From positions 90,526-154,525 of the forward strand of contig NZ_QWJJ01000012.1 in NCBI RefSeq assembly GCF_003575965.1: a stretch of 64,000 nucleotides of DNA, given 5' to 3'. The translations under genes were made by a program, and so were the position numbers. Below the pieces are notes generated by a model. It was given only the letters and a program-made list of their open reading frames with translations, ran no database searches and was not told the DNA's origin. Positions 4,902 to 63,719 of this stretch are shown piece by piece (position 1 is the first letter of the stretch; each line of letters begins with the position of its first letter). This DNA is from Pseudooceanicola sediminis. GTDB lineage: Bacteria; Pseudomonadota; Alphaproteobacteria; Rhodobacterales; Rhodobacteraceae.

Positions 4902-5121
4902 ACAGGTTCTTCCTCACTCACCCATCTCGTCAGAGGGCACGAAAGCGTCCGGCGCCGACGAGCGACACCAAACGCGATGGACTCTCTTCAGATATTGGTC
5001 CGGCGGTCAGCAGCGCCCACGGACCGGAAAGGGGCGGTCATTGTCATATGTAAAGACGATCAATACCACAGAATCACCCCTTTTCATAGGGTGTGACGCG
5101 TCAGGGCTGCAGATGCGGCGT

Positions 5122-5460
5122 TCAGCCGCCTTCGCCGGGCGCCTCAGAGAAGTATTTCTCCATCTTGCCCTCTTCGCCATCACGGTCTTCGGCGTCGGGC
5201 AGCTGGTCTTTCTTGGTGATGATCACCGGCCAGAGTTCCGCGTACTTGCGGTTGAACTCCACCCATTTTTCCATGTCCGGCTCGGTGTCGGGACGGATCG
5301 CATCGGCCGGGCATTCCGGTTCGCATACGCCACAATCGATACATTCGTCAGGGTGAATCACCAACGTGTTCTCGCCCTCGTAGAAACAGTCCACCGGGCA
5401 GACTTCGACGCAATCGGTGTATTTGCAGGCGATACAGTTTTCAGTGACGACGTAGGTCAT
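5122..5460 (-). CDS. fdxA: 7Fe ferredoxin FdxA (3Fe-4S/4Fe-4S)
   Basis: This is a small cytoplasmic electron carrier with two iron-sulfur clusters. The 112-residue protein starts [17 protein letters not shown] and shows CVEVCPVDC followed by [16 protein letters not shown]. The first set of cysteines is spaced for a 3Fe-4S cluster, the second for a 4Fe-4S cluster. The C-terminal half ([17 protein letters not shown]) is the helix typical of FdxA. It follows the S4 and helicase genes on the same strand, an order commonly conserved in Rhodobacterales. A perfect 14-bp palindrome lies just upstream of its start. Confidence 0.95.
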
Positions 5461-5485
5461 GGCTTACTCTCGAAGATCGAACAGG

Positions 5486-5499
5486 GGTCTAGCTAGACC
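5486..5499. promoter_or_regulatory. Perfect 14-bp palindrome upstream of fdxA
   Basis: GGTCTAGCTAGACC is fully self-complementary and lies in the 50-bp gap between the S4 gene stop and the fdxA start, about 26 bp before the fdxA ATG. It has no T-run, so an operator is more likely than a terminator. The regulator is unknown. Confidence 0.45.
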
Positions 5500-5510
5500 A
5501 CTGAACAGGA

Positions 5511-5897
5511 TCATTCAAGCGCCCCTCGGCGATCAAGATCGAGTTTCCTGCGGTCGCGCTTGGTCGGACGAGAATTGCCTTCGATCCGGGCAATCGGCGG
5601 AACGTGTTTCTCGGCCTCATCGGTCGGGGTCAGATCCTCGTAGAGGGTCTGCGCCTCTGCTGCTGGGCCCCTGCGCGTGCCCAGGGCCGCGATCCGCACA
5701 ACGCGGACATGATCCGCCTGCGTGAAGGTCAGCACATCGCCGACCGCGACATTGGCAGACGGTTTGGACACATGGTTGCCATTTATGCGCATATGGCCGC
5801 CCGAAACGCAGGCGGCGGACAGGCTACGGCTTTTGAAAAACCGTGCCTGCCACAGCCATTTATCCACGCGCAAACGCGGCTGAGAGGCCCCGACCAA
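5511..5897 (-). CDS. S4-domain RNA-binding protein, Hsp15 (HslR)-like
   Basis: This 128-residue protein has an N-terminal S4 RNA-binding domain at residues ~8-65 (RLRVDKWLWQARFFKSRS, then GGHMRINGN). It also has a basic C-terminal tail (PTKRDRRKLD) typical of the heat-shock protein Hsp15, which binds free 50S subunits carrying nascent chains. It starts three bases after the helicase stop, so the two are almost certainly co-transcribed. The assignment rests on the WLWQARFFK motif, which is strongly conserved in this family. Confidence 0.88.
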   Translation of the reverse strand: MVGASQPRLRVDKWLWQARFFKSRSLSAACVSGGHMRINGNHVSKPSANVAVGDVLTFTQADHVRVVRIAALGTRRGPAAEAQTLYEDLTPTDEAEKHVPPIARIEGNSRPTKRDRRKLDLDRRGALE

Positions 5898-5900
5898 GGA

Positions 5901-8807
5901 TCAATCCTTGGTTTTCAGCCCCATCAGCGCGGCGGCGAAGGGGTTGTCGGGATCGATACGATCCTTCTTTTTCGGCGGTGTCGCCTCAAAGGTCTTGGCC
6001 TTGTTGTCGCGCTGCGGCTTGCCGCCCTGCCCTGGCTTTCCACGCGGCTTGCCGGTGTTGCCCTTGGGACGCTCCCCACGATTGTGCTGAGTGCGCGGCT
6101 TCTGACCATCGCGTTTGTCGCCGTCGCGCCCACGGGCGTTCTGGCGTGCCGCGCGACCGGCCCAGGTGAAGGTAAAGAACTCTTCCACTTCCGGCGTGGC
6201 CTCGGCGGTTGCGCCTTCTTCGGCAGCAGCAGGATCAGCCGTACTGGTGGCCGCTGCCTTCTCGACATCCTCTGACGGCGTCTGCGCCGGATCGACAGTG
6301 GGGTCGACAGCGGGGGGCGCGTCGCTCTCTGCTGCAGGCGGCTCTTCGGCGGCAGTCGCATCGGTTTCGGGTGCCGCGCCGCCGTCACCGTCTGCTTGGA
6401 CAGGCTTGTCGGCGGCGGCAGGCTCGGCCTTGACCTTCGCCCGTTCGCCCTTTTCGGCCTTGTATCCCAGCCCCTGCATCAGATCCGCGAACTGTTCCAA
6501 CGTCATGCCCGAGATCGAGAGCATGTCGGCTTTCGCCTCGAACCCGCCACGACTGTCTTCGCCGCGCAGCATGTCCGCCAAACGTTCCAGCATGTCGATA
6601 CGGATGGCCCGTTCACCGGCCGCGCGATAGCCGGCCATGGCATAATAGCCCTGCGGCATGTCCTTTTGCGCGGGTACAGTTACCAGGCCCGGCGGCGGCG
6701 CTTCGGGAAATTCGTCCAGGTTGCCGGCCAGAGCCCACAACAGAAGACGCAGCCGAGTCGGCGCCGGTTTCAGCAAAAGCGGCATGAACACAGTGTATTG
6801 GCCAAAACGCACACCGTGCTTACGCAGGGCACCACGGGCGTCCTGATCCAGGGATTTGACCTCTTCCGCGACATCGCCACGCGGCAGGATGCCAAGCGAC
6901 TCGACCAGCCGGAAGGCAAAGCCGCGCGCCAGACCCGACAGGGCCTCGTCGCGCTGCAGGTTCATCAGCGGTTCGAACAATGCCGCGATCTTGCGGTCAA
7001 TGAAGTGCTGAAGACGACGTTCCACCTTTTGCGCCACGTCCGGGCCCGCTTCGTCGTCGACAAAGGCGACGATTTGCGGCTTCATCGGCTCGGAACCCGC
7101 AGCCAGTTTACCGATTGCCAGTTCGCCCCACATGAGGCCACCCTGTTCGGTAAAGTCAATTTCGGTATCGGGCGCGTTATAGAAACGATCCGCCCTCAGG
7201 TTGAAATGCGGAACCAGCGCCTGCAGGCTTGCCTGCCGCAACGTCTTGGCTTCCTGCCCAGAGGCGTCCTTGTCCTGACGGAAACGGAAGCCTTCAAGAC
7301 GTCCTACGAATTCGCCTTCGACGGTCACTTCGCCGGTATCGCTCACTTCGGCCAAGAGGGCCTCCTTCTGCTTGAGCCGCCGTAGCAAGACACTTGTACG
7401 GCGGTCCACAAATCTTTGGGTCAAACGTGCGTGCAGCGCATCCGACAAGCGGTCTTCTACAGCGCGCGTTTCGTCACGCCAATGACTTTCGTCACTTACC
7501 CACCCATTGCGTTGTGCGACATAGGTCCATGTGCGGATAAATGCGAGCCTTTTCGAGAGCGCGTCGATATCGCCCTCGGTTCGGTCGATCCTGTGTACCT
7601 GTGTTGCCAGCCATTCATCCGGGACACGTCCCTTTTCGTGCAGAAACCCGAAGATCTGCGTCAGCAGGCCTGCGTGTTCATTATGACTGATACCACGAAA
7701 ATCGGGAATGCGGCAGACATCCCAAAGCAACCGAACAGAGGCCGTATCGGAGGCTCTTGCGCTTACTTCGCCGTCCGCTGCCATGGTTTTCAGCGCAATA
7801 AGATCATCCGCATCGCGCGAACGCACCAATCGCTCGTCCGCTGGCGACATCTCGAGCGAATGGATCAGCGGATCGATTCCCCCGAACCTCAGGTCGTGAT
7901 TGCGCCAGTTCAACTTGCGGATCGGGGTAAAGCGATGCTCCATGATCGCCTCGACCACCTCGGGGTGAAGGGGCCCCGCTTCGCCCGTTACGCCGAAGGT
8001 GCCGTCTGACATCCCGCGCCCCGCCCGACCGGCGATCTGGGCCAGTTCGTTCGGCGCAAGGTCGCGCATGCGCCGACCGTCAAATTTCGTGACAGAGGAA
8101 AACGCGACGTGATTCACGTCGAGGTTCAGCCCCATCCCGATGGCATCCGTCGCGATCAGATAGTCCACATCGCCGTTCTGGTAGAGTTCGACCTGCGCAT
8201 TCCGCGTGCGCGGGCTGAGCGCGCCCATGACAACCGCAGCGCCACCCTTCTGGCGGCGCACGAGCTCGGCCATCGCGTAGATGTTATCGACCGAAAATCC
8301 CACGATCGCACTGCGCGACGGGATACGGCTGATCTTGCGCGAGCCGGAATAAGACAGCTGCGACAGGCGGTCCCTGCGCACGAATTGCGCAGTAGGCACC
8401 AGATCGGCAATCGCGCTGCGCATCGTGTCAGCCCCGAGAAACAGCGTCTCGTGCAGTCCGCGTGCACGTAGCAGGCGGTCGGTAAAGACATGTCCACGCT
8501 CCGGATCAGCGCAAAGCTGGATTTCGTCAATGGCAAGAAAATCACAGCCCATGCCCTCGGGCATCGCCTCGACCGTGCAGACCCAGTACTGGGTGCGCGG
8601 AGGCACGATACGTTCTTCGCCCGTGACAAGGGCCACGACGGAGGGCCCGCGGACAGCGACGATCCGGTCATAGACCTCGCGCGCCAGCAGGCGCAGCGGT
8701 AAACCGATCACCCCTGTGCGATAGCCCAGCATCCGTTCGATGGCATAATGCGTCTTGCCCGTGTTCGTCGGCCCGAGGACCGCCGTAATCCTGCCCTGAC
8801 CGGACAT
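5901..8807 (-). CDS. SUV3/MgpS-type superfamily 2 RNA helicase
   Basis: This is predicted to be an ATP-dependent nucleic-acid helicase related to mitochondrial SUV3. The 968-residue protein has a Walker A motif GPTNTGKT at residues 12-19, the motif II variant DEIQ at 94-97 and the motif VI region QIAGRAGR at 257-264. A long middle domain follows, then a C-terminal tail rich in Ala, Pro and Glu (about residues 780-890), ending in a Lys/Arg/Gly-rich segment that may bind RNA. The start at 8807 has AGAGGTG upstream; the frame could extend 18 codons further but without a ribosome-binding site. It leads the helicase-S4-fdxA set. RNA turnover is the best guess for its role. Confidence 0.88.
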   Translation of the reverse strand: MSGQGRITAVLGPTNTGKTHYAIERMLGYRTGVIGLPLRLLAREVYDRIVAVRGPSVVALVTGEERIVPPRTQYWVCTVEAMPEGMGCDFLAIDEIQLCADPERGHVFTDRLLRARGLHETLFLGADTMRSAIADLVPTAQFVRRDRLSQLSYSGSRKISRIPSRSAIVGFSVDNIYAMAELVRRQKGGAAVVMGALSPRTRNAQVELYQNGDVDYLIATDAIGMGLNLDVNHVAFSSVTKFDGRRMRDLAPNELAQIAGRAGRGMSDGTFGVTGEAGPLHPEVVEAIMEHRFTPIRKLNWRNHDLRFGGIDPLIHSLEMSPADERLVRSRDADDLIALKTMAADGEVSARASDTASVRLLWDVCRIPDFRGISHNEHAGLLTQIFGFLHEKGRVPDEWLATQVHRIDRTEGDIDALSKRLAFIRTWTYVAQRNGWVSDESHWRDETRAVEDRLSDALHARLTQRFVDRRTSVLLRRLKQKEALLAEVSDTGEVTVEGEFVGRLEGFRFRQDKDASGQEAKTLRQASLQALVPHFNLRADRFYNAPDTEIDFTEQGGLMWGELAIGKLAAGSEPMKPQIVAFVDDEAGPDVAQKVERRLQHFIDRKIAALFEPLMNLQRDEALSGLARGFAFRLVESLGILPRGDVAEEVKSLDQDARGALRKHGVRFGQYTVFMPLLLKPAPTRLRLLLWALAGNLDEFPEAPPPGLVTVPAQKDMPQGYYAMAGYRAAGERAIRIDMLERLADMLRGEDSRGGFEAKADMLSISGMTLEQFADLMQGLGYKAEKGERAKVKAEPAAADKPVQADGDGGAAPETDATAAEEPPAAESDAPPAVDPTVDPAQTPSEDVEKAAATSTADPAAAEEGATAEATPEVEEFFTFTWAGRAARQNARGRDGDKRDGQKPRTQHNRGERPKGNTGKPRGKPGQGGKPQRDNKAKTFEATPPKKKDRIDPDNPFAAALMGLKTKD

Positions 8808-51908: not shown

Positions 51909-52655
51909 TCAGGGTGCGGCGGCGCGGTGCAAAGCCTCGGAAATAGTGGCAAGGGTCGGGTAGAACGCGGCATCCTTGCGTCGCGCGCTGCCCTGGCTCG
52001 GCAGCTCAGGCAAAAATTCCTGCCAGATCCGCCCCGGCTGCGCCTGCATCAGCAGGATGCGGTCCCCGAGGATCAGTGCCTCGTCAACGGAGTGGGTCAC
52101 GGCAATCAGCGCGCTGCCCTCTTCGCTGGCTTGGGCGAGGACAACATCCTGCATCTGTTCCCGCGCCAGCGGATCGAGGTTTGCGAAGGGTTCGTCCAGC
52201 AGCAGCAAGGGCGCCTGCATCGCCAGTGCCCTGGCCAGGGCCAACCTTTGCCGCTGACCGCCCGAGAGGTCATCGGGCCAGTCACCAGCCCGTTCCGCGA
52301 TGCCCATGCGCGCTAGCAGCGCCGCGACGCGGGCCGCGCGGGCCGACCGTGGCAGATGCGCCAGAACGATCGAAATATTCTCTTCCACCCGCCGCCAGGG
52401 CAGCAGGCGCGGTGACTGGAAGATCACCGCGCTGTTCGTGCCGGGGGCGGGGTTTGCGCCTAGCAGCGTGATCTGCCCCGTCTGCACGGGGATGAGCCCC
52501 GCAATCAGGCGCAGCAGCGTGGTCTTGCCACAGCCCGATGGGCCGAGGATCGCAACACGCTCGCCTCGGTTCAGCGCAAAGGAGACGTCCTGCAACGCCG
52601 GGCGCGCGTCAAAGCCATGACCCAGGCCGGAAACAGAGAGCAGAATATCGTTCAA
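51909..52655 (-). CDS. ABC transporter ATP-binding protein (second NitT/TauT-type system)
   Basis: This is the ATPase subunit of an importer (248 residues). Walker A is GPSGCGKTT, the Q-loop is VIFQSPRLLPW, the signature LSGGQRQRL and Walker B LLLLDEPFANLD. The LLPWRRVEENI segment is typical of nitrate/sulfonate-type ATPases. It is the last gene of a three-gene minus-strand operon and overlaps the binding-protein gene by four bases. The substrate is not known. Confidence 0.92.
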   Translation of the reverse strand: MNDILLSVSGLGHGFDARPALQDVSFALNRGERVAILGPSGCGKTTLLRLIAGLIPVQTGQITLLGANPAPGTNSAVIFQSPRLLPWRRVEENISIVLAHLPRSARAARVAALLARMGIAERAGDWPDDLSGGQRQRLALARALAMQAPLLLLDEPFANLDPLAREQMQDVVLAQASEEGSALIAVTHSVDEALILGDRILLMQAQPGRIWQEFLPELPSQGSARRKDAAFYPTLATISEALHRAAAP

Positions 52656-53677
52656 CGGCTGACCTTGTCACCCAGCTGGGAGGTGCCGATTTTCGCCAGA
52701 ACGGCATCCATCGGTGCGAAGTCTGCCCAATCCTCGATCTCGACCCGGAATGGCGTGTCCTCTCCGTTCTCGCGTTTGTAGGTGTGTTGCGTGCTGCGCG
52801 CTGAATACAACAGTTCGTCGAACTGGAACCCGCCATTCACCGTCCAGCTTTCCTTGTAGGTCTGCGCCAGGGTTTGCAGAGTTTCGCGTGACACGTCGGG
52901 ACGGGCCGCTGCCATGTCGTCGACCCATTTTTCAGGATGCGCGGCGTAGTCGCGTGCGGCCACTGTCAGTGCCTCCAGCACCTTTTTCACATCGTCGCCG
53001 CGTGTTTCAAGCGTTTCGCGATTTACCACGTCGACCTTGCTGACCAGGGGTACCTGCTTGAAAAAGCCCGCGACATCCACAAGCAACGTGAAGCGGTCAT
53101 GATCCGGCATCGCCAGAAAGCTGCCGATCGACATGGTCGTCGCGTCGATGCGCCCTGCCATCAGCGCCTGCGCCCGCGTCGATGGGCCGCCCAGCGGCAC
53201 CAGCTTGAGCGTGTCGACATTGACCCCGAGGTTTTCAAGCACCCGGCTGGACAGGTCGTGATCCAGGCTGCGCAAACGGCCGATGCCGTAGACCGCGCCG
53301 GGCAGGTCGGCAAGCGTCAGATCCTTGCGACCCGCGATGACAAAGGGAATTGCCTTGTCGGTGGAATGGACGGCGATCACGTCTTCGACCCCTTCGCGAT
53401 GCAGCGAAATGACACTGTCGAGAGATATGTTCGCCATGTCGCCCTGCCCGGCCCGCAGCGCCGCAACCGCCATCGGTGTCTGGGCCGCCGGGACCAGCGT
53501 GACCTGCACACCGGCCCGATCGAAATACCCCTCTCTGGCACTGAGGTAGAGCAGCGAGTTCGGCACCAGAGGGGTTTCGGTGCTGGTCACGATAATGCGA
53601 AACGGGTCGGCCTGCCCGGCCGTTGCAAGTACGGCAAGGCCAAGGCCAAGGGACAGTTTCCTGAGGAGAGAGAGCAT
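52652..53677 (-). CDS. ABC transporter substrate-binding protein (second NitT/TauT-type system)
   Basis: This 341-residue periplasmic binding protein has a signal peptide (LRKLSLGLGLAVLATAGQA). The NMT1/THI5-like fold is suggested by SLLYLSAREGYFDRAGVQVTL, AVAALRAGQGDMANIS, KDLTLADLPGAVYGI and LMAGRIDATTMS. The protein is unusual in having a long C-terminal extension rich in charged residues. Family ligands include nitrate, alkane sulfonates, taurine and thiamine precursors. A decayed CysB/LysR-like gene nearby hints at a sulfur or nitrogen source, but this is weak. It lies between the permease and ATPase genes. Confidence 0.88.
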   Translation of the reverse strand: MLSLLRKLSLGLGLAVLATAGQADPFRIIVTSTETPLVPNSLLYLSAREGYFDRAGVQVTLVPAAQTPMAVAALRAGQGDMANISLDSVISLHREGVEDVIAVHSTDKAIPFVIAGRKDLTLADLPGAVYGIGRLRSLDHDLSSRVLENLGVNVDTLKLVPLGGPSTRAQALMAGRIDATTMSIGSFLAMPDHDRFTLLVDVAGFFKQVPLVSKVDVVNRETLETRGDDVKKVLEALTVAARDYAAHPEKWVDDMAAARPDVSRETLQTLAQTYKESWTVNGGFQFDELLYSARSTQHTYKRENGEDTPFRVEIEDWADFAPMDAVLAKIGTSQLGDKVSR

Positions 53678-53701
53678 GGAATTCCTTTTGAGGTGAAGCG
53701 G

Positions 53702-54565
53702 CTAATACGTCAGCCGTTGTCTGTGCGCGGGTGGGATGAGGCGACGCTCGGCCCAAGTCAGAAAGCCTGTCGTCAGGGCCCCGATCGCGGAATAGGTCAG
53801 GACCACGGCAAAATAGCTGTCCATCCGGTAACTGTTGCCGAAGCCCTGCAATAGCGCCCCGAGGCCGGTCATCGCCGTATAAAGGTCCGCGATGGCGGAT
53901 GCGACCAAGCCGGCCATTGCCGCCAGCCGCAGCCCCGCCATGACCGAAGGCAGCGCCGAGGGCGCATAGACATGCCGCAACCGCGCGCCGCGCGTCAGCG
54001 CGTAGGCGCGGGCCATTTCCAGCAAGTCTGGATCTGTTGCCTGAACACCGGCCTGCGTATTGATTGTGACCGGCATCACGGCGGCCAGGAACACGATCAG
54101 AACCTTTGCCTGGCAATCAAGACCCACGAGCAGGATGATCAACGGGATCAGCGCCACCACCGGGGTCGCCGCCAGCCCGTGCAGGTAAGGCGCGCTGGTG
54201 CGGCCCAGGGTGCGAAACCGGCCCAGCAGATACCCAAGGGGGATTCCGACCAACGCAGCAAGGCCCAACCCGCCGAAGTAGACCGACACCGTGGACCAGA
54301 TCGCCAGCGGGAAATCCTGTCTGTCATCCATCAGCAGCAGGAAAAAAGCGCGGATCGTCAGGTATGGGCCGGCGACAAAACCAGCCGGTGCAAGCCCGGC
54401 CAGCGCGGACCAGCCCCACAGCAGCGCCGGCAGCAAGGCAAGACGCAGCCAGATGTAGGCCGGGATGCGCGCGATCCAGTCGAGGTCGGCGGCGGCCCGG
54501 CGTATTTCCCCCCTCGCCCTGGCAAGCCAGCCGGGGCGGCGCGATTTCTGGATCTTGCGTGTCAT
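53702..54565 (-). CDS. ABC transporter permease (second NitT/TauT-type system)
   Basis: This is an inner-membrane permease of 287 residues with about six membrane helices. The cytoplasmic coupling loop is visible (YALTRGARLRHVYAPSALPSVMAG), in the place of the EAA motif. The N-terminal leader is strongly basic. The ATG at 54565 is preferred over the upstream start, which lies in a poorly coding stretch. It is the first gene of the operon, 24 bases before the binding-protein gene. The upstream promoter region merges with decayed coding sequence. Confidence 0.9.
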   Translation of the reverse strand: MTRKIQKSRRPGWLARARGEIRRAAADLDWIARIPAYIWLRLALLPALLWGWSALAGLAPAGFVAGPYLTIRAFFLLLMDDRQDFPLAIWSTVSVYFGGLGLAALVGIPLGYLLGRFRTLGRTSAPYLHGLAATPVVALIPLIILLVGLDCQAKVLIVFLAAVMPVTINTQAGVQATDPDLLEMARAYALTRGARLRHVYAPSALPSVMAGLRLAAMAGLVASAIADLYTAMTGLGALLQGFGNSYRMDSYFAVVLTYSAIGALTTGFLTWAERRLIPPAHRQRLTY

Positions 54566-54959
54566 GCTGCGTATATGTCCGCGACGGTGGCACGACAGGG
54601 GTGCCATCAAATGCTGTGCCAGCGCTTAGCAGCAATGAAAATCAGGGAAAAGCCCCAGACCCGCGAATGTGATCACAACCGGGTGCGCGGGGCGATACCC
54701 ACCGTAGTTTCCGGGGCGCGCCGGCGCCTCGGGATGCCGAGGATCACGTGACCAGGCGCCGAGGCCTGCGGCAAGACCGGGCATTGTCAGAGTGATGGGC
54801 GCCAGCCTGCGATCTGTCGACGGTGCCATTTGTCGCGCGATGCGCTCATGAGAGTGAACTTGCCCCTCCCGCGCGGATCGTTGCCATGGTCGGCAGGCGC
54901 GACGAGGCGTTCCGGCGTGGGGATCGATCAACAGGGAGGAGCCGCCGCCCCGGCCCGAG

Positions 54960-55388: not shown

Positions 55389-55709
55389 GGCGGTAAACAG
55401 GCAATATTCTCACTTATTAGACAATGCGCTAATGTATGTAGAGAATCCTGCAAAAACTGCACATTTTTTCCGCGATCCGTCGACGCGCCCGAAAATCCCC
55501 GACGCGCAAAATCGCCAATTCCCTCTTTAAATAAATCAGAATCAGCACGTAGCGCCTTGTTTTCTGGATATCTCTGGATTGCGGTTGTTGCTGACGCGTG
55601 ATTGGATCAATCCTGAGACGAGGCGAATTTGCCGCAAAACGCACAACCGGGCGCAGCACGAAAGATCCGGATGCCTCGCCCGGCGGGGTGACAGCAGAAA
55701 GAGGTTGCG

Positions 55710-56591
55710 GTGACGCAAGACAGCAAGGTGAATTTTGTCGAGGTCGGCGCGCGGCTGAGGGCACACCGATTGGGGCGCTCGATCTCTCCCGAAGATCTGG
55801 CGAAGCGGCTCAGCATCTCGCGTGCAGCGCTTTATCGTGCAGAAAAGGGCGAGATCGCCAAGATCGAGATGCTGACCGCCATCGCCGAGGAACTGCACGT
55901 CTCCCTGCCGACATTGCTGGGGGTGGGGATCGAATACGTCTCGAATGCGATCAGCTTTTTCGAACGCATGCGCCAGCTGGAAGAGGACAGCGAACAGATT
56001 ATCGGCCTCTTCAGCCCGATTTCCTACCTCGTCACAACCGGGCAATACGACATCGTCCTGGCAGATGTCCTGCGAGAGTCGACGGGCGACGCCCCGTCTG
56101 CCGACATTGATATGGTCCTGTCGATACTGGCCAAACGCAAAGCCCGCTTTGCGCAACGCCGTCCTCTCCTCGCCTCGATCATCTCGGATTCCGATCTGGA
56201 GAAGTTCCTGCGTGATGGTTTGGAGGGGCGCATGGACCTGGACGAAGACACCAGATCACAGCGTCGCCGATTGGCCCTGGCAGAAGTCCGGCATATCGTG
56301 TCGATGCTGCGCGCGCCCGACATCGGCATCCAGATCGGTGTTGCACGCGAACCGATTCCATCCACCTCGTTTCAGATCATCCGCAAGGGCGCGACCTCGA
56401 CCCTGACGATCAGCCCGTTCAGGCTGGGCCATAACCCGAACATCCGCGTCGGGGTCGGCCTGATCACCGCCGCCCCCGAGGCACTGGAGCTGCACGAAGA
56501 GATCGCGCAACGTCTTTGGGCGACCTCGCTCAAGGATATGGAAGCGGCCGAGCACGTCGAATCACTGATTGCCCGGCACGGTATTGTCTGA
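55710..56591 (+). CDS. XRE-family transcriptional regulator with long effector domain
   Basis: The 293-residue regulator has an N-terminal helix-turn-helix of XRE type at residues ~9-65 (VGARLRAHRLGRSISPEDLAKRL, ISRAALYRAEKGEI). A C-terminal domain of about 200 residues has no motif I can name; it ends with RLGHNPNIRVGVGLI and a helical segment. It starts with GTG at 55710, with GAAAGAGG upstream. It precedes the TRAP/pyrKD operon on the same strand with a 151-bp gap carrying a dyad, so it most likely controls that operon. Confidence 0.82.
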   Translation: MTQDSKVNFVEVGARLRAHRLGRSISPEDLAKRLSISRAALYRAEKGEIAKIEMLTAIAEELHVSLPTLLGVGIEYVSNAISFFERMRQLEEDSEQIIGLFSPISYLVTTGQYDIVLADVLRESTGDAPSADIDMVLSILAKRKARFAQRRPLLASIISDSDLEKFLRDGLEGRMDLDEDTRSQRRRLALAEVRHIVSMLRAPDIGIQIGVAREPIPSTSFQIIRKGATSTLTISPFRLGHNPNIRVGVGLITAAPEALELHEEIAQRLWATSLKDMEAAEHVESLIARHGIV

Positions 56592-56652: not shown

Positions 56653-56666
56653 TCTCATTTTTGAGA
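56653..56666. promoter_or_regulatory. Dyad upstream of the TRAP operon
   Basis: TCTCA and TGAGA are inverted repeats around TTTT, about 77 bp before the DctP start. It lies before a possible -35 element (TTGACC near 56685). It may be the operator of the upstream XRE regulator, or the end of that gene's transcript (T-rich). Confidence 0.4.
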
Positions 56667-56742
56667 TTATTCCATTGACCCCACGGCCGAGGCAGGAAAC
56701 CTTACTCCCATCACATCAAAAAAGTGACTCAGGGAGCATTTC

Positions 56743-57750
56743 ATGAAATCCAACTTCATCCTCGCAGCTTTGACCGCCATGGGCCTAGGTGCAGCGGCAC
56801 CTGCGATGGCAGCAGAATACGTCGCCAAGATCGGACACCTGGAAAGCACGCAGCAAAGCCGCCACGTCTTTCTGGAAAAGGTCGGTGACCTGGTTGCCGA
56901 ACGCACGGGTGGCGAAGTCACCTTCCAGATTTTCCCGCAAGGCCAGCTGGGCGACCAGCGCCAGATGAACGAAGGTGTACAGCTTGGCACGCTTGAGGCG
57001 ACCGTCGCACCTGCGGCTTTCCTCGGCGGTTTCAATCCGATGGTTTCGATCCTCGACATTCCCTACCTGATCCCCGAAGACGCGGATGCCGCCGCAGAAC
57101 TGCGCGATGGCCCCTTCGGCCAGGCGTTGCTCGACAGCTTTTCCGACAAGGGCATGATCGCGATCGACCTCTGGCCCAACGGCAAGAAGCAGTTCACCTC
57201 GAACGATCCGATCGACACTCTGGCCGATTTCAAGGGTCAGAAGTTCCGCGTCATGGACAGCTCGATCCTGATCGAACAGTTCAATGCCCTCGGCGCCTCG
57301 GCCATCGCCCTGCCCTTTGGTGAGCTCTACACCTCGTTGCAGACCGGCGTTGTCGATGGCGAGGAAAACCCGCTCGACACCATCAAGGCGATGAAATTCT
57401 ACGAAGTTCAGAAGAACCTTGTCGTGTCGGACCACGGCGCGATGGAAGACGTGATCCTGTTCAACCCGACATTCTGGAACAGCCTGCCGGAAAAGGATCA
57501 GACAATCATCAAGGATGCCTTTGCAGAAGTCATCCCCGAGCTGACAGCCCACAAGGCCGCAGCCGTCGAGGCCGCGCTGGAAACCATCAAGGAGTCCGGC
57601 ACCAACGTGCGGGTCGCGGATGAGGCAGAGCGTGCCGAACTGCGTGACGTGATGTTCGGCCCGGCCTCGGACGCCTACGTCAAGAAAACCGGCGATGCCG
57701 GCCAGGCCCTGCTGGACACCTACCAGCAAGCCTACGACGCGCTGAAGTAA
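56743..57750 (+). CDS. dctP: TRAP transporter substrate-binding protein (DctP family)
   Basis: This is the periplasmic receptor of a TRAP importer (335 residues). The signal peptide is MKSNFILAALTAMGLGAAAP ending in MAAE. DctP features are VFLEKVGDLVAERTGGEVTF, IFPQGQLGDQRQMNEGVQLG and the ligand-contact region LGASAIALPFGELYTSLQTGV with GVVDGEENPLDT; the Arg in KFRVMDSS may bind a carboxylate. It begins a tightly packed operon that continues with DctQ, DctM and pyrimidine enzymes. By context the ligand may be an orotate- or carbamoyl-amino-acid-type carboxylate. That is an inference. Confidence 0.94.
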   Translation: MKSNFILAALTAMGLGAAAPAMAAEYVAKIGHLESTQQSRHVFLEKVGDLVAERTGGEVTFQIFPQGQLGDQRQMNEGVQLGTLEATVAPAAFLGGFNPMVSILDIPYLIPEDADAAAELRDGPFGQALLDSFSDKGMIAIDLWPNGKKQFTSNDPIDTLADFKGQKFRVMDSSILIEQFNALGASAIALPFGELYTSLQTGVVDGEENPLDTIKAMKFYEVQKNLVVSDHGAMEDVILFNPTFWNSLPEKDQTIIKDAFAEVIPELTAHKAAAVEAALETIKESGTNVRVADEAERAELRDVMFGPASDAYVKKTGDAGQALLDTYQQAYDALK

Positions 57751-57832
57751 ACGACGATTGGGCCTGCCCCCCGGCGGGCGGGCCCTGCCCCGGCTGACAC
57801 CGGGCGACGAAACCCGTGAAGGATTCCACCCG

Positions 57833-58330
57833 ATGAAAGCCCTCCACCTGTTGCGGACGATCGAGCGTTGCGTGCTTGTCGCTCTCTTCCTGACCATGGT
57901 GCTGCTCTATTGCGGCTCGGTCCTGACGCGCGAAATCGGCGGCACGTTTGCCAGCCAGTTCGCCTGGATCGAAGAAGCCGTTCGGCTGATGAACCTGTTC
58001 CTCGTCTTCCTGGCCCTTGGTCTGGCGCTGGAACGCGGCAAACATGTCGGGATCACCAATTTCCGGGACCGCCTGCCACCCCGCCTGATGCGGCTGGTGT
58101 GCGCCCTGATCGATATCGTGGGGGTGTGCTTCAGCCTCTACCTGGCCTGGCTCGCGGTCGAACTGGTTCAATTCGTTCTGAAAAGCGGGCAGCGTTCGCC
58201 CACCCTCGATGTGCCGATGGGCCTGATCTACCTCGCGCCCGTCATCGGCTTTGTCCTGCTGGCGCTGCGCTATGGCCTGAGCCTTTTTGGCGTCTTTGAC
58301 CGATTTGTCACCCCGGAGGCCGCAGAATGA
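57833..58330 (+). CDS. dctQ: TRAP transporter small membrane subunit (DctQ family)
   Basis: This 165-residue four-helix membrane protein pairs with DctM. Family features are VLYCGSVLTREIGGTF near the first helix, WIEEAVRLMNLFLVFLALGLAL and the basic loop ERGKHVGITNFRDRLP. The ATG at 57833 has GAAGGA about ten bases upstream. It overlaps the dctM start by four bases. Confidence 0.93.
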   Translation: MKALHLLRTIERCVLVALFLTMVLLYCGSVLTREIGGTFASQFAWIEEAVRLMNLFLVFLALGLALERGKHVGITNFRDRLPPRLMRLVCALIDIVGVCFSLYLAWLAVELVQFVLKSGQRSPTLDVPMGLIYLAPVIGFVLLALRYGLSLFGVFDRFVTPEAAE

Positions 58331-59610
58331 TCGTTGCGCTTATCGTCCTGCTCGCGGTTGTGCTGCTGGCCACGGGGTTTGAGATGCTGTTGGTGTTGGG
58401 CCTGCCGGCCCTGGCCTACAAACAGGCGTTCTGGGCACAGCTGCCCGATGCCGCCGTGGTGCAAAAAATCGTCGGCGGCATCGACCATACGACGCTGCTG
58501 GCCATTCCCTTCTTTATCTTTGCCGCCAACCTGATGGGGTCCGGCCAGATCGCCCGCCAGCTGGTCGGCGTGATCAAGGCGTTGCTGGGTCACACCCGTG
58601 GTGGCATGGGTCACGTCGTGGTCGGTGGCAGCATGGCCTTCGGATCAGTCTCAGGGTCTGCGCCTGCGACCGTCGCCGCCCTGGGCCGCATGGTCTATCC
58701 CGAGATGCGCGCCGCAGGCTATTCCGAGAGGTTCAGCCTGGGCCTGCTGGTCGCCTCTGCCGAGACCGCACTGCTGATCCCGCCCTCGATCACGCTGATC
58801 GTCTATGGCTGGATCACCGGCACGTCGATTTCCAAGCTGTTTGCGGGCGGCCTTGCCGTCGGTATCGTGTTGGCCATCGCGTTTTCGATCTTCGTCCATT
58901 TCCAGGCCCGCCGCGACGGGGTGGTGCCCAGCCCCCGCATGGGTTGGGCCGCCCGCCTGCGCGCGATGTGGGAGGCGAAATGGGCCCTCGGGATGCCCGT
59001 CATCATCCTTGGCGGCATCTATTCCGGCGTCATCACCCCGACCGAGGCCGCCGCTGTCAGCGTGCTTTACGCGATCATCGTCGAAATGGTGGTGTTTCGC
59101 AGCCTCAGCTGGTCCGGCCTGTTTCGCATCACCGAGGACAGCGCGATCAACACCGCAATCATCTTCGTACTGCTGGCAATGGGCGGGCTGATCTCGTTCT
59201 TCGTCACGCTGGCGCAGGTGCCCAACGAGATCATCAGCCTGCTGGGACACCTCGACGCCGGGCGCATCACCTTTCTGATCGTCGTGAACATCTGCTTCTT
59301 CATCGCAGGCATGTTCGTCGATCCGAACTCGACCCTCCTGGTGCTGGTGCCGCCGCTCTACCCTGTCGCGCTCAGCTTTGGCATTGATCCTGTGCACTTT
59401 GGCATGATCGTCACGCTGAACGTCTGCCTGGGGATGATCACGCCTCCCTTCGGCCTCGACATCTTTGTCGCCTCCTCGACGCTGGGCAAGCCTGTCGCCG
59501 CGATCATCCGAGGCGTGTGGCCCTTTGTGCTGCTGAACCTGATCGTGCTGCTGCTGATCACCTACATTCCCCAGATTTCACTTTTCGTGCCTCGGCTGAT
59601 CTTCGGCTGA
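58327..59610 (+). CDS. dctM: TRAP transporter large permease subunit (DctM family)
   Basis: This is the ion-coupled permease of the TRAP system (427 residues, about 11-12 membrane helices). DctM signatures include IPFFIFAANLMGSGQIARQL, GGSMAFGSVSGSAPATVAAL and the C-terminal GMITPPFGLDIFV. It overlaps dctQ by four bases and ends 14 bases before the pyrK-like gene, so uptake and metabolism genes form one transcript. Confidence 0.95.
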   Translation: MIVALIVLLAVVLLATGFEMLLVLGLPALAYKQAFWAQLPDAAVVQKIVGGIDHTTLLAIPFFIFAANLMGSGQIARQLVGVIKALLGHTRGGMGHVVVGGSMAFGSVSGSAPATVAALGRMVYPEMRAAGYSERFSLGLLVASAETALLIPPSITLIVYGWITGTSISKLFAGGLAVGIVLAIAFSIFVHFQARRDGVVPSPRMGWAARLRAMWEAKWALGMPVIILGGIYSGVITPTEAAAVSVLYAIIVEMVVFRSLSWSGLFRITEDSAINTAIIFVLLAMGGLISFFVTLAQVPNEIISLLGHLDAGRITFLIVVNICFFIAGMFVDPNSTLLVLVPPLYPVALSFGIDPVHFGMIVTLNVCLGMITPPFGLDIFVASSTLGKPVAAIIRGVWPFVLLNLIVLLLITYIPQISLFVPRLIFG

Positions 59611-59624
59611 GAAAGGCTTCTTCC

Positions 59625-60470
59625 ATGACTGTGCATCCAACCGTCCTGTCCGTCCCGGCGCCGCCGGGTGTCATACCCCGTTGCGCCGAGGCACGGACCC
59701 GCGTCGTTTCAAATACGCCCGTCAACGGCGAATATCGCCTGTTGACCCTCGACGCCCCGGCCGAGGTTCTGGCCTGTCATCCCGGCCAGTTCTTTCAGTT
59801 GCTGTGCCCGGAACCCGACGGCGAACACCCCTTTCTGCGACGCCCGATGAGCATCTACGGCTATGATGCCGACGCAGGACAGTTGCAGTTTCTCTATAAG
59901 GTCACGGGTGCTGGCACGCGCGGTCTCGCGACGCTGAAGCCCGACGACGGACTGAATGTGCTGGGCCCGCTTGGTCAGGGCTTTACCATGCCCGAAAACC
60001 GCCAGAATCTGCTTTTGCTGGCGCGTGGCGTCGGCTTGGCCACGCTGGCTCCGCTGGCGCGGATGGCGCAGCGGAAGGGGCGTAGCCTGACCGCGATCTG
60101 TTCGGCCCGCCGACCAGAGCTGGCGATGTCGGTCGACCTGTTTCGCAGCTATGGCGCCGAGGTGATCGTCGTGCATGACGCGGACGAAAGCGCCACGCCC
60201 GAAGCCCTGCGCATCCTGATCGAGGCACAGATTGCAAAGCGTCGCATCGATGCCTTCTATACGTGCGGATCGGCGCGGCTTCTCCGCCTTCTGCAGGATA
60301 TCGGTGCCCGACATGGCATCCCCGGCGAAGTGGCGATGGAACAGCAGATGGCCTGCGGCATCGGCATGTGCCAGGCCTGCGTGCGCAGTTTCCACGATGG
60401 CGATCAGGTCGTGCACCGCCGTGTCTGCCGCGAAGGCCCTGTGTTCCCGATTTCGGAGGCGATTGCGTGA
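59625..60470 (+). CDS. pyrK: Dihydroorotate dehydrogenase electron-transfer subunit (PyrK)
   Basis: PyrK passes electrons between NAD(H) and the PyrD subunit of class 1B dihydroorotate dehydrogenase. The 281-residue protein has an FAD-binding ferredoxin-reductase domain (PFLRRPMSIYGYD at ~75-87, ARGVGLATLAPLA in the NAD domain). A C-terminal 2Fe-2S cluster site has cysteines at 244, 249, 252 and 268 (MACGIGMCQACV ... RRVCREGPVF). It is followed directly (one-base overlap, TGATG) by pyrD, which confirms the pairing. The ATG at 59625 lies 14 bases after dctM. Confidence 0.93.
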   Translation: MTVHPTVLSVPAPPGVIPRCAEARTRVVSNTPVNGEYRLLTLDAPAEVLACHPGQFFQLLCPEPDGEHPFLRRPMSIYGYDADAGQLQFLYKVTGAGTRGLATLKPDDGLNVLGPLGQGFTMPENRQNLLLLARGVGLATLAPLARMAQRKGRSLTAICSARRPELAMSVDLFRSYGAEVIVVHDADESATPEALRILIEAQIAKRRIDAFYTCGSARLLRLLQDIGARHGIPGEVAMEQQMACGIGMCQACVRSFHDGDQVVHRRVCREGPVFPISEAIA

Positions 60471-61414
60471 TGAAAGATATCCCCCATCCCCCGGTATGCG
60501 ACATGGGCGTCCAGATTGGCGGCCTGCGTCTGGCGAACCCGATCATGCCCGCCTCGGGGACGTTCTCCGAAGATCTGTCGGACGTCTTCGACCTTGATAT
60601 CCTTGGCGCGCATGTCTTGAAAACCATCATGCGGGATGCGCGCGCGGGCAATCCGACCCCGAGGGTCTGCGACCTTCAGGGCGGCATGTTGAATGCCATC
60701 GGGATCCCGTCAAAGGGCATCGATGATTTCCGCGACCGGATGCTGCCTTATTGGGCCGGCTACAAGGCCCCCCTGATCGTGTCGATTTCGGCCCATACCG
60801 TGGATGAATTCGCGCAGCTTTGCCGAGAGGTTACCCTGCCGGGTGTGGCCGCGATCGAAGCCAATATCTCCTGCCCGAACATCGAGGCCGATGGGCGCGC
60901 CTTTGCGATGCGCCCCGACACCACCGAGCAGGTTGTACAGCGCCTGCGGGCCGAGACGGACCTGCCTCTCTGGGCCAAGCTGACACCGAATACCGGAGAG
61001 CCGGTCGACGTCGCGCTTGCGGCCGAAGCGGCGGGTGCCGATGCACTGGTGGTGGCGAATACCGCGCTTGGAATGTCGATCGACGTGACGACCCGCCAGC
61101 CGCGTCTGGGCAATATCATGGGCGGGATCTCGGGGCCCGCGATAAAGCCGATTGCCTTGCGCATGACCTATCAGATTGCCCGTGCCTGCCGGATCCCCGT
61201 CATCGGCTGCGGCGGTATCGCGACGCGCGACGACGCGCTTGAATTCATGATCGCAGGGGCCCGCGCGGTACAGGTCGGCACCGCAACGTTCCAATCCCCC
61301 ACTGTCATGGCACGCCTTGTTGCCGAGCTGTCCGAGTGGGCCAGTGCAGAGGGGCTGACCTCGATCGAGGAGATCATCGGGTCCGTCGGCACGCCCCGGG
61401 GGGACATGTCATGA
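60470..61414 (+). CDS. pyrD: Dihydroorotate dehydrogenase catalytic subunit, class 1B (PyrD)
   Basis: This is the FMN enzyme that interconverts dihydroorotate and orotate, NAD-linked through PyrK. The 314-residue protein shows the class 1 features: NPIMPASGTF, LNAIGIPSKG, the active-site base Cys135 in EANISCPN, NTALGMSIDV and GGISGPAIKPIALRM, ending with GTATFQ. Class 1B uses Cys rather than Ser as base, as here. It has no ferredoxin extension, so it is not the dihydropyrimidine dehydrogenase subunit PreA. Most alphaproteobacteria use a membrane class 2 PyrD for synthesis, so this second type next to a transporter suggests another role, perhaps reduction of orotate. Confidence 0.93.
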   Translation: MKDIPHPPVCDMGVQIGGLRLANPIMPASGTFSEDLSDVFDLDILGAHVLKTIMRDARAGNPTPRVCDLQGGMLNAIGIPSKGIDDFRDRMLPYWAGYKAPLIVSISAHTVDEFAQLCREVTLPGVAAIEANISCPNIEADGRAFAMRPDTTEQVVQRLRAETDLPLWAKLTPNTGEPVDVALAAEAAGADALVVANTALGMSIDVTTRQPRLGNIMGGISGPAIKPIALRMTYQIARACRIPVIGCGGIATRDDALEFMIAGARAVQVGTATFQSPTVMARLVAELSEWASAEGLTSIEEIIGSVGTPRGDMS

Positions 61415-62676
61415 AGGATCTGGATACGGATACCCTGGGCGGGCTGGCGCAACAGATTTTCGACGGGGTTCGCGCCCTGTCCAGGGACACGGCAGGCGTC
61501 AGCCGCCCGGCCTTTTCATCGGTCGAAACCGAAACGCTTGCCTGGTTGGCCGATTTCGCCCGCCAGAATGGCCTTCACGTCACCGAGGACGCGGGCCGGA
61601 ACCTGCTGTTCAGCCTGCCTCAGGATGCAAATGCAACGCGATGGACCCTGATCGGCAGCCATGTCGATTCGGTGCCGATGGGGGGCAACTACGACGGCCT
61701 GGCCGGCGTCGCCGCAGGTCTGATCGTATTGATCCGTGCTGCCCGATCGGGGCGCCGATTTCGCAAACCTGTCAAGTGCATCGCCATGCGTGGGGAAGAA
61801 AGCGCCTGGTTCGGGGCGTGCTATCTGGGGTCCAAGATGTTGACGGGGCAGTTGCCAGCCGACGAACTGGCCGCAACGCACAAGGGCGATGACCGTCCGC
61901 TCTCGGCACACCTGCAAGACCTCGGCATCGACACCGCGCCGCTTGCCGCGCATCTGCCGATCTGCGACCTGTCGCGGATCGACGAATACCTTGAGTTGCA
62001 TATCGAGCAAGGCCCCCTCCTGGTCGAACGTGATATTCCTGCCGCTGTCGTTTCCGGCATCCGCGGCAATTTCCGCCATCGCAAGATCCGATGTATCGGT
62101 CAGGCCGGGCACTCAGGTGCCGTACCACGCGCTTACCGGCATGATCCGGTATTGGCCTTTGCGGAACTTATGCACCGCCTTGATTCCACCTGGAGCCACC
62201 TGCAACAGACTGGAGATGACCTGGTTCTGACCTCGGGCATCGTCGGCACGGACCCTGCCAGTCATGCGATTGCCCGCATCCCGGACGAGCTGATGTTCTC
62301 GCTCGATATCCGGTCCCAGGATGCGGAGGTGCTGAACCAGATGCGACGCTATCTGCGTGCGCAGATGGACGACATTTCCCGCAGCCGGGGCGTGCGCTTC
62401 GACACCGGGTCCGAGGTTGCCGTGGCCCCTGCCCTGATGGATGCCACGATCATCGCAGGACTTCAGGACGCCATGCAGCAGGCGACTGGTGACACGTTCA
62501 CCATGGCGTCCGGTGGCGGCCATGACGCTGCCATCTTTGCCCAGGCGGGCATTCCCGCCGGCATGGTCTTCGTGAGGAACCGAAATGGCAGCCATAACCC
62601 CGACGAAGCGATGGAAATCGACGATTTTCTGGTAGGCACCGCCGTCTTATCGACCTATCTGGAGGAGGCACCATGA
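61411..62676 (+). CDS. M20-family Zn-dependent amidohydrolase (N-carbamoyl-L-amino acid hydrolase / allantoate amidohydrolase type)
   Basis: This enzyme hydrolyses N-carbamoyl compounds, releasing CO2 and ammonia. The 421-residue protein has the M20 metal site: His84 in GSHVDSV, Asp95 in GGNYDGLAGV, Glu129/130 in RGEESAWFG, a His in ELHIEQGP and the C-terminal His in SHNPDE. The dimer lid domain (GQAGHSGAVPRAYRHD) is typical of the carbamoylase subgroup. It overlaps pyrD by four bases and pyrE by four bases. In this setting N-carbamoyl-L-aspartate (from dihydroorotate) is a natural substrate, but allantoate and ureidopropionate fit the same family. Confidence 0.88.
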   Translation: MKDLDTDTLGGLAQQIFDGVRALSRDTAGVSRPAFSSVETETLAWLADFARQNGLHVTEDAGRNLLFSLPQDANATRWTLIGSHVDSVPMGGNYDGLAGVAAGLIVLIRAARSGRRFRKPVKCIAMRGEESAWFGACYLGSKMLTGQLPADELAATHKGDDRPLSAHLQDLGIDTAPLAAHLPICDLSRIDEYLELHIEQGPLLVERDIPAAVVSGIRGNFRHRKIRCIGQAGHSGAVPRAYRHDPVLAFAELMHRLDSTWSHLQQTGDDLVLTSGIVGTDPASHAIARIPDELMFSLDIRSQDAEVLNQMRRYLRAQMDDISRSRGVRFDTGSEVAVAPALMDATIIAGLQDAMQQATGDTFTMASGGGHDAAIFAQAGIPAGMVFVRNRNGSHNPDEAMEIDDFLVGTAVLSTYLEEAP

Positions 62677-63383
62677 AAGCCCCCCTCACCATGCCCCTGA
62701 CCGCTGACACCCGCGCCGACTATGCACGCCGGACTGCACTGGCGCTGTTGGACATCGGTGCGGTTGAACTGGCCACGGCACGACCGTTCATCCTGTCGTC
62801 CGGCGTGGCCAGTCCAGTCTACATAAACGTCCGCAAGGTCATCTCGTATCCGGCGATCCGCGACATGCTGATGGGGTTTGCCACCGATATCATCGATCAG
62901 GACATCGGGCGCGACGGAGTCGATGCCATTGCCGGCGCAGAAACCGCCGGAATCCCATTTGCCGCGTGGATCGCGACGCTGACGGGCCTGCCCATGCAAT
63001 ACGTCCGAAAGCGGGCGCAGGGTTTTGGCCCCGGCGCGCATATCGAAGGCGTCTCCTACCCCGGCCAGCGGGTGCTGCTGGTCGAGGATCTGACAACCGA
63101 TGGCGCCTCCAAGATCCGCTTTTGCGAGGCACTGCGACAGGCCGGGACCGAGGTGCGCGATGTGCTGATGCTGTTTCAGTATGATATCTTTGCGCAGACC
63201 CGCAGCGCGCTGAGTGACCACGGATTGCGGCTCCACGCGCTGGCGAATTGGGGGGATATTCTTTCAGCTGCAAAGGATACCAGCCATTTTTCCCACACCG
63301 ACCTGGACCGGATCGAAAGCTTTCTGAATGCGCCGCTCGACTGGTCCGCGGCTAACGGCGGTTCGCGCCGCCTCATTTTCTGA
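62673..63383 (+). CDS. pyrE: Orotate phosphoribosyltransferase (PyrE)
   Basis: PyrE converts orotate and PRPP to orotidine 5'-phosphate. The 236-residue protein has the substrate region FILSSGVASPVYINVRKVIS, the YVRKRAQGFG loop and the PRPP-binding motif LLVEDLTTDGAS at ~135-146. It overlaps the amidohydrolase gene by four bases. The genome probably has a housekeeping pyrE elsewhere (not visible here), so this copy may serve salvage of imported orotate. Confidence 0.92.
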   Translation: MKAPLTMPLTADTRADYARRTALALLDIGAVELATARPFILSSGVASPVYINVRKVISYPAIRDMLMGFATDIIDQDIGRDGVDAIAGAETAGIPFAAWIATLTGLPMQYVRKRAQGFGPGAHIEGVSYPGQRVLLVEDLTTDGASKIRFCEALRQAGTEVRDVLMLFQYDIFAQTRSALSDHGLRLHALANWGDILSAAKDTSHFSHTDLDRIESFLNAPLDWSAANGGSRRLIF

Positions 63384-63398
63384 TTGAAGGATATCCCC

Positions 63399-63719
63399 AT
63401 GTTCACGTTCATCCTTGAAACCCTGAAAGACCAGGGTCGCGGCATTCACGCCTATCGCTCCGCCGCCAAGAGCCTGTTCGAAAAGGCCGCCGAAAGCCCG
63501 GATAACGCCGCCGCCTTTTATATTCTCGCCACCAGCGCGGACACATTTGTCGACCGTCATGAACGGATGCCGATGTCCGCACATGAGCTGGAGCAGACCT
63601 TCGATGCCTTCCAGGCAGATATCATGGCCCTGCAATCAGCGCACGACAGCGACGATGCACAGGCCATCCTCGCAACGCTCAACCGCATTGCAAACGCGCG
63701 GGCCGTGGCCGACGTCTGA
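63399..63719 (+). CDS. Small helical protein of unknown function at the end of the TRAP/pyr operon
   Basis: The 106-residue acidic protein appears wholly helical, with no signal peptide, membrane helix or metal motif that I recognise. Its N-terminus is FTFILETLKDQGRGIHAYRS. GAAGGA precedes the ATG by about ten bases, 15 bases after pyrE, so it belongs to the same operon. It could bind or regulate one of the operon enzymes; there is no direct evidence. Confidence 0.65.
   Translation: MFTFILETLKDQGRGIHAYRSAAKSLFEKAAESPDNAAAFYILATSADTFVDRHERMPMSAHELEQTFDAFQADIMALQSAHDSDDAQAILATLNRIANARAVADV

Follow-up and report, generated by a model that had tools for sequence, protein, structure and literature searches.

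A TRAP Transporter Operon with PyrKD, an M20 Carbamoylase and PyrE: A Probable Orotate Uptake and Use Module in Pseudooceanicola sediminis and Other Proteobacteria

Orotate is a precursor of the building blocks of DNA and RNA. The 64,000-nucleotide stretch of Pseudooceanicola sediminis DNA analyzed here (hereafter the window) carries, at positions 56743–63719 of its + strand, an eight-gene operon that very probably serves to take up and use this compound. It runs from DctP, DctQ, and DctM, which form a tripartite ATP-independent periplasmic (TRAP) transporter, through PyrK, a class 1B PyrD, a carbamoylase of the M20 family and PyrE, to a small protein. An earlier note on this DNA had listed these genes in this order and running in one direction, and all eight are indeed present, with four overlapping neighbor pairs (DctQ/DctM, PyrK/PyrD, PyrD/M20, and M20/PyrE). 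The note was right about the enzymes and the TRAP transporter, but missed the regulator, the operator-like palindrome, the variants with an importer of the major facilitator superfamily (MFS), and the plasmid forms. The proposal is carried by the gene content, the conservation of the cluster, the second copies of pyrimidine genes elsewhere in the genome, and the likeness of DctP to a protein bound to orotic acid, all of which come directly from the computation.

How might such an operon work? DctP would capture periplasmic orotate, and DctQM would carry it inward, presumably at the expense of an ion gradient, like other TRAP systems. Two fates would then be open. For salvage, PyrE would combine orotate with phosphoribosyl pyrophosphate into orotidine monophosphate, which PyrF, encoded elsewhere, would turn into uridine monophosphate. 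For breakdown, PyrK and PyrD (PyrKD), presumably working in the reducing direction, would convert orotate to dihydroorotate with reduced nicotinamide adenine dinucleotide (NADH); a dihydroorotase (PyrC), encoded within the cluster in relatives and elsewhere in the genome here, would open the ring to give N-carbamoyl-L-aspartate; and the M20 enzyme would split the latter into L-aspartate, CO2, and NH3, providing both carbon and nitrogen. A helix-turn-helix (HTH) protein would control the operon through the sequence TCTCA-N4-TGAGA beside the promoter. The order of the breakdown reactions is that of the classical orotate fermentation of Clostridium (Zymobacterium) oroticum, in which an NAD-linked reduction of orotate and ring opening are followed by a ureidosuccinase that yields aspartate. 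We know of no dedicated transporter or last-enzyme gene in that organism, whereas here the genes are grouped, in Proteobacteria, into an operon that includes a regulator and an importer of the TRAP or MFS kind. Reductive pyrimidine catabolism by PreA/PydA, hydantoinase, and beta-ureidopropionase follows the same logic in three steps, with ring reduction, ring opening, and loss of the carbamoyl group, but that pathway acts on uracil and thymine, which have no carboxylate, and its genes lie apart from the operon in this genome, on contig C48.

Among solved structures, the nearest to DctP is 4NN3 (phmmer E-value 6e-128, the next Protein Data Bank match being at 1e-48), with 62% identity over the aligned residues (200/323), and the 41 other DctP proteins from related clusters are 58–64% identical to it. 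A 2024 article describes 4NN3, a TRAP protein of Maridesulfovibrio salexigens, as bound to orotic acid (PMC11668362), and a 2018 review names orotic acid among the ligands newly found for TRAP proteins (PMC5812351). The earlier note had proposed orotate or dihydroorotate as the imported compound, and the likeness to 4NN3 favors its reading. Two residues of 4NN3 are singled out in the cited passage, a Lys replacing the Arg found at position 152 of 4P47 and an Asn replacing the acidic residue at position 76 (PMC11668362). The Lys, K149 in the window, is present in 42/42 cluster DctPs but in 4mx6 as well, and the Asn is D71 in the window. The positions of the carboxylate Arg (R169) and of an Asn (N209) are kept between the aligned sequences. 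DctP is annotated here as a predicted orotate binder; 4NN3 appears in the cited passage as a binding protein only (PMC11668362).

The genome (4.44 Mb, 99.6% complete) has further pyrimidine genes. A class 2 PyrD is encoded at C48:186673 (contig:position), a PyrC of the TIGR00856 type at C3:148569 and, adjoining it, another PyrE at C3:149776, which is 47.5% identical to that of the operon. The operon therefore does not hold the sole PyrD or PyrE of this genome, the case that the earlier note had named as refuting its reading, and two statements of the earlier note, that this is not the usual biosynthetic arrangement and that a dihydroorotase is encoded elsewhere, agree with these positions. A role in the uracil-type (Pre/Pyd) pathway was rejected: the PyrD of the window passes the dihydroorotate dehydrogenase models (308.8 bits for TIGR01037, cut-off 270) and scores 136 against the PreA cut-off of 335, while the true PreA, at C48:48329 (713 bits), has its own M20 neighbor at C48:45209. 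The C48 pair looks like ordinary uracil breakdown. The window PyrD also carries an NISCPN motif, which we take to contain the catalytic Cys. Elsewhere in the genome, a further PreA-like enzyme (C3:77436-80990) reaches 282 bits against the same PreA cut-off.

The cluster recurs widely. PyrK matches were obtained in 10/394 genomes of the family, 11/385 of the class, and 8/398 of the phylum, this genome being included each time; the seven other phylum matches are weak (31–42% identity). A scan of named genome contigs added 42 loci. In all, 66 loci fetched through PyrK were mapped (the window, 9 from the family, 14 from the class and phylum, and the 42 named ones), four weaker phylum matches (L064-L067) being left out. 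Of the mapped loci, 63 have paired orthologs of PyrK and PyrD, the exceptions being three phylum loci without the module (L079-L081, PyrK 37–40% identity). An M20 gene follows PyrD on the same strand, with at most 160 bp between the aligned parts, in 54/63 PyrK+PyrD loci, which answers the earlier note's question of whether the order recurs. Because the same order recurs in many genera, the arrangement is not due to chance; among the taxa of the named contigs are Celeribacter, Pseudooceanicola, Maritimibacter, Pacificibacter, Thalassospira, Stappia, Nitratireductor, Devosia, Pelagibacterium, and Pigmentiphaga. Across relatives, identity to the window proteins is 45–88% for M20 and 49–88% for PyrK. 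Plasmids account for two of the loci from the family, L041 and L042, whose match positions are those of plasmids of Pacificitalea manganoxidans and Roseicitreum antarcticum.

Around this constant set of enzymes the importer changes, and the kinds are unrelated: among the 54 M20 loci, 42 have a TRAP transporter and 10 an MFS protein, one locus having both and three neither. An HTH regulator homolog lies near PyrK in 56/63 PyrK+PyrD loci. PyrE is near in 47/54 M20 loci, PyrC in 17/54, and one or the other in 50/54; no PyrE is in view in the remaining 7/54, one of which (L112) is on a 6-kb contig. Such a distribution fits the two fates proposed from the start, as does a pyrF gene in an Agrobacterium plasmid form described below. 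Whether a dihydroorotase joins the genes in relatives had likewise been asked, and it does: in many of them, an extra gene of about 350 codons between M20 and PyrE encodes one, that of L100 reaching 426 bits with TIGR00856 (cut-off 293) and those of six genomes (G089, G152, G331, G408, G496, and G696) exceeding the same cut-off. With PyrC in place, the route from orotate through dihydroorotate and N-carbamoyl-aspartate to aspartate is therefore complete within one cluster.

Some loci depart from this pattern. In four of the PyrK+PyrD loci that have no M20 (L072, L074, L076, and L078), PyrKD lies near a regulator homolog, a protein containing tetratricopeptide repeats and the large subunit of a molybdenum hydroxylase, with no M20, PyrC, or PyrE nearby; this setting is possibly a different orotate-related route. 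In L073 (3443-7033, on a 10.9-kb contig), two PyrE genes flank PyrC and there is no M20. L071 (10554-14374) has no TRAP or MFS importer of the present type; genes for an ATP-binding cassette (ABC) transporter and for a nucleoside hydrolase (PF01156) lie beside its module.

The M20 enzyme would perform the last step of the breakdown. Its metal and catalytic residues (H84, D95, E130, and H395) are conserved, and it stays under the equivalog cut-offs for known substrates, both that of ErtE (251 against 520) and those of the listed allantoate equivalogs. Three arginines (Arg127, Arg218, and Arg289) are found in 58/58 cluster M20s and a fourth, Arg240, in 57/58, the exception being on an Agrobacterium plasmid. 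L-carbamoylase 3N5F and allantoate amidohydrolase 1Z2L belong to the same family and share the metal and catalytic positions, but neither has any of the four arginines, which are also absent from the two other M20 enzymes found in this genome; and where 3N5F and 1Z2L have the Asn of an N-V-(I/V)-P motif, the cluster enzymes displayed carry Ala, Ser, or Thr. We infer that the extra arginines would serve to recognize the second carboxylate group of N-carbamoyl-aspartate. From their context and these subfamily arginines, the cluster M20s are candidate N-carbamoyl-aspartate hydrolases, that is, ureidosuccinases (presumably EC 3.5.1.7). No gene for ureidosuccinase is known to us, and neither this name nor a description of such genes or of such an operon was found in the open-access papers searched, where absence is weak evidence.

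Plasmids carry the module as well. A plasmid protein search gave 103 records whose M20 relative reaches an E-value of 1e-40 or better, 53 of them from Klebsiella. On a Klebsiella milk plasmid (NZ_CP050823.1, 5537-18531), a divergent MFS gene is followed by PyrK, PyrD, M20, PyrC, and an HTH gene, which makes up the complete route with its own importer and no PyrE in the stretch; lacY begins 1.8 kb past the HTH gene, with lacZ beyond and copper genes near. Its MFS protein is 68% identical to that of Pigmentiphaga. The best 49 of 5000 plasmid records listed contain 80% or more of this 13.1-kb stretch. Going by their source notes, 27 were obtained from people and 9 from milk, bovine mastitis milk included; for the others, wastewater, seawater, a plant, a bivalve, or no origin at all is noted. 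A collection of 5,426 E. coli genomes gave no match to the Klebsiella module. Milk naturally contains orotic acid, according to the passage cited (PMC12111157), and the link between the Klebsiella module and milk is suggestive. One further milk plasmid (H78) has the lac part only. An Agrobacterium plasmid places pyrF (4906-5763) beside PyrK-PyrD-M20, with no PyrE in the stretch, and a Paracoccus plasmid carries a further form. Somewhat better than even, in our estimation, are the chances of a broader reading: that the M20 enzyme is the product of the missing ureidosuccinase gene, that it marks a widespread, horizontally mobile orotate-use operon of Proteobacteria which swaps TRAP and MFS importers, and that Klebsiella plasmids carry this operon alongside a lactose operon, as a milk-use island.

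Upstream of the operon, the HTH gene lies on the same strand and belongs to the unit. Across 60 upstream regions from 54 loci (some loci giving two or three), the pattern TCT(C/A)A-N4-T(G/T)AGA occurs in 42, where 0.06 would be expected from mononucleotide shuffles. It is present in 31/42 dctP upstream regions, and TTGAC follows it by 2–9 bp in 30 of these 31 (by 6–9 bp in 29). In the window as a whole, the palindrome occurs twice against 0.06 expected from dinucleotide shuffles, 1/100 shuffles reaching two. The second copy precedes the regulator gene, and L082 has one at the same 302-bp spacing (5782, for a gene at 6084). Matches with one change stand before TTGAC in Thalassospira and others. 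The position of the palindrome next to a -35 box suggests activation, and the HTH protein is likely the regulator that acts at TCTCA-N4-TGAGA next to the promoter.

What else could the operon do? It might import a relative of orotate (dihydroorotate, N-carbamoyl-aspartate, or a substituted orotate) for the same enzymes to process. TRAP proteins can, in general, bind close analogs, and dihydroorotate would require no more than M20 and PyrC, but breakdown of this compound needs no PyrKD, yet in the mapped, PyrK-fetched loci M20 is only found beside PyrKD. The same neighborhood is seen in three annotated plasmids and, as the closest solved relative of DctP holds orotic acid, import of such a relative seems unlikely. 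A role in salvage only, with PyrKD oxidizing imported dihydroorotate to orotate for PyrE and M20 in some side role, would agree with the frequent presence of PyrE and with a known precedent: in E. coli and Salmonella, according to the passage cited, DctA imports orotate for PyrE (PMC13328217). DctA, however, is a C4-dicarboxylate carrier, and no breakdown genes are mentioned with it in that passage (PMC13328217). Loci with PyrKD-M20 where no PyrE is seen, and the Klebsiella form with PyrC and without PyrE in the stretch, speak against salvage alone, and a side role would offer no explanation for an M20 gene placed after PyrD, on the same strand, in every one of the 54 loci that have it; we hold this possibility to be very slight.

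There is hardly any room for the view that this is simply a duplicated or relocated cluster for pyrimidine biosynthesis, even though PyrK, PyrD, PyrE, and PyrC are all enzymes of biosynthesis. A class 2 PyrD is present in 20/20 genomes tested, and this, together with the pyrE and pyrC found elsewhere in the present genome, led to its rejection; moreover, a biosynthetic cluster would not be expected to have a built-in importer and a carbamoylase, the latter undoing synthesis. Nevertheless, two genomes (G408 and G496) have the cluster PyrE as the sole PyrE found, so that it is presumably also biosynthetic there, and five (G152, G331, G408, G496, and G696) show no PyrC of this type beyond the one in the cluster. 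Some clusters may thus share in biosynthesis, or the cell may use another type of dihydroorotase.

These two results weigh against a module devoted to orotate uptake and use, and others have to be set beside them. PyrKD lacks M20 in 9/63 loci, some of them on short contigs, and related PyrKD pairs therefore also serve in other settings. The window PyrK falls below every NCBIfam equivalog cut-off (best 125 bits against 314), its name here meaning domain and position rather than an equivalog. In DctP, the Lys of 4NN3 is also aligned in 4mx6, and the Asn position is D71 in the window, the other 41 proteins having N (27), Q (10), or D (4); the two positions alone are undecisive because 4mx6 shares the first and the second varies. 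Common ancestry of the cluster M20s has moderate tree support, all 58 grouping together at 0.68 against four outgroups. Finally, the palindrome pattern was not found in the Klebsiella intergenic region, and it was drawn from the very sequences in which it was counted, so the count is descriptive.

The window ends with the contig, so genes downstream of the small protein are out of sight. This 106-residue protein is kept at the 3′ end of many TRAP-type clusters (24 sequences aligned), and its AlphaFold2 (AF2) model shows five helices with a mean confidence (pLDDT) of 91.4; no Pfam family passes its cut-off and no convincing fold match was obtained. PyrE narrowly misses the TIGR00336 cut-off (105.7 against 106.8) while passing that of Table 1. 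Upstream of the regulator, on the opposite strand, lies an NMT1-type ABC transporter (51909-54610).

Table 1. Genes and putative control elements of the operon in the window (scores in bits, model cut-offs in brackets).
Feature	Position	Strand	Evidence
Second operator-like palindrome TCTCACTTATTAGA	55408..55421	.	302 bp before regulator gene
HTH (Cro/C1-type) transcriptional regulator, likely operon control	55710..56591	+	PF01381/PF13560
Operator-like palindrome TCTCATTTTTGAGA	56653..56666	.	pattern shared with upstream regions of relatives
TTGACC, -35-like box	56675..56680	+	8 bp after palindrome
DctP, TRAP solute-binding protein, predicted orotate binder	56743..57750	+	PF03480 275; 200/323 identical to 4NN3
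DctQ, TRAP small permease	57833..58330	+	PF04290 100
DctM, TRAP large permease	58327..59610	+	TIGR00786 388 (268)
PyrK, flavin adenine dinucleotide (FAD)/[2Fe-2S] electron-transfer subunit	59625..60470	+	PF10418 49.7 (23.9)
PyrD class 1B, dihydroorotate dehydrogenase catalytic subunit	60470..61414	+	NF005574 340.5 (269)
M20 carbamoylase, predicted N-carbamoyl-L-aspartate amidohydrolase (ureidosuccinase)	61411..62676	+	TIGR01879 267 (204)
PyrE, orotate phosphoribosyltransferase, second copy	62673..63383	+	NF001729 285.7 (245)
Small five-helix protein	63399..63719 (from ATG)	+	24-sequence alignment; AF2 model

If the operon is indeed an orotate uptake and use module, it would supply the genes for a pathway that is known biochemically and that we have not found described at the gene level in these bacteria. 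It would also provide a candidate for an enzyme for which we know of no gene, and would give TRAP proteins of the orotate-bound type a physiological role. Bacteria of the sea and the soil, and enteric bacteria with such plasmids, would then possess a dedicated route by which a pyrimidine precursor could serve as a source of carbon and nitrogen.

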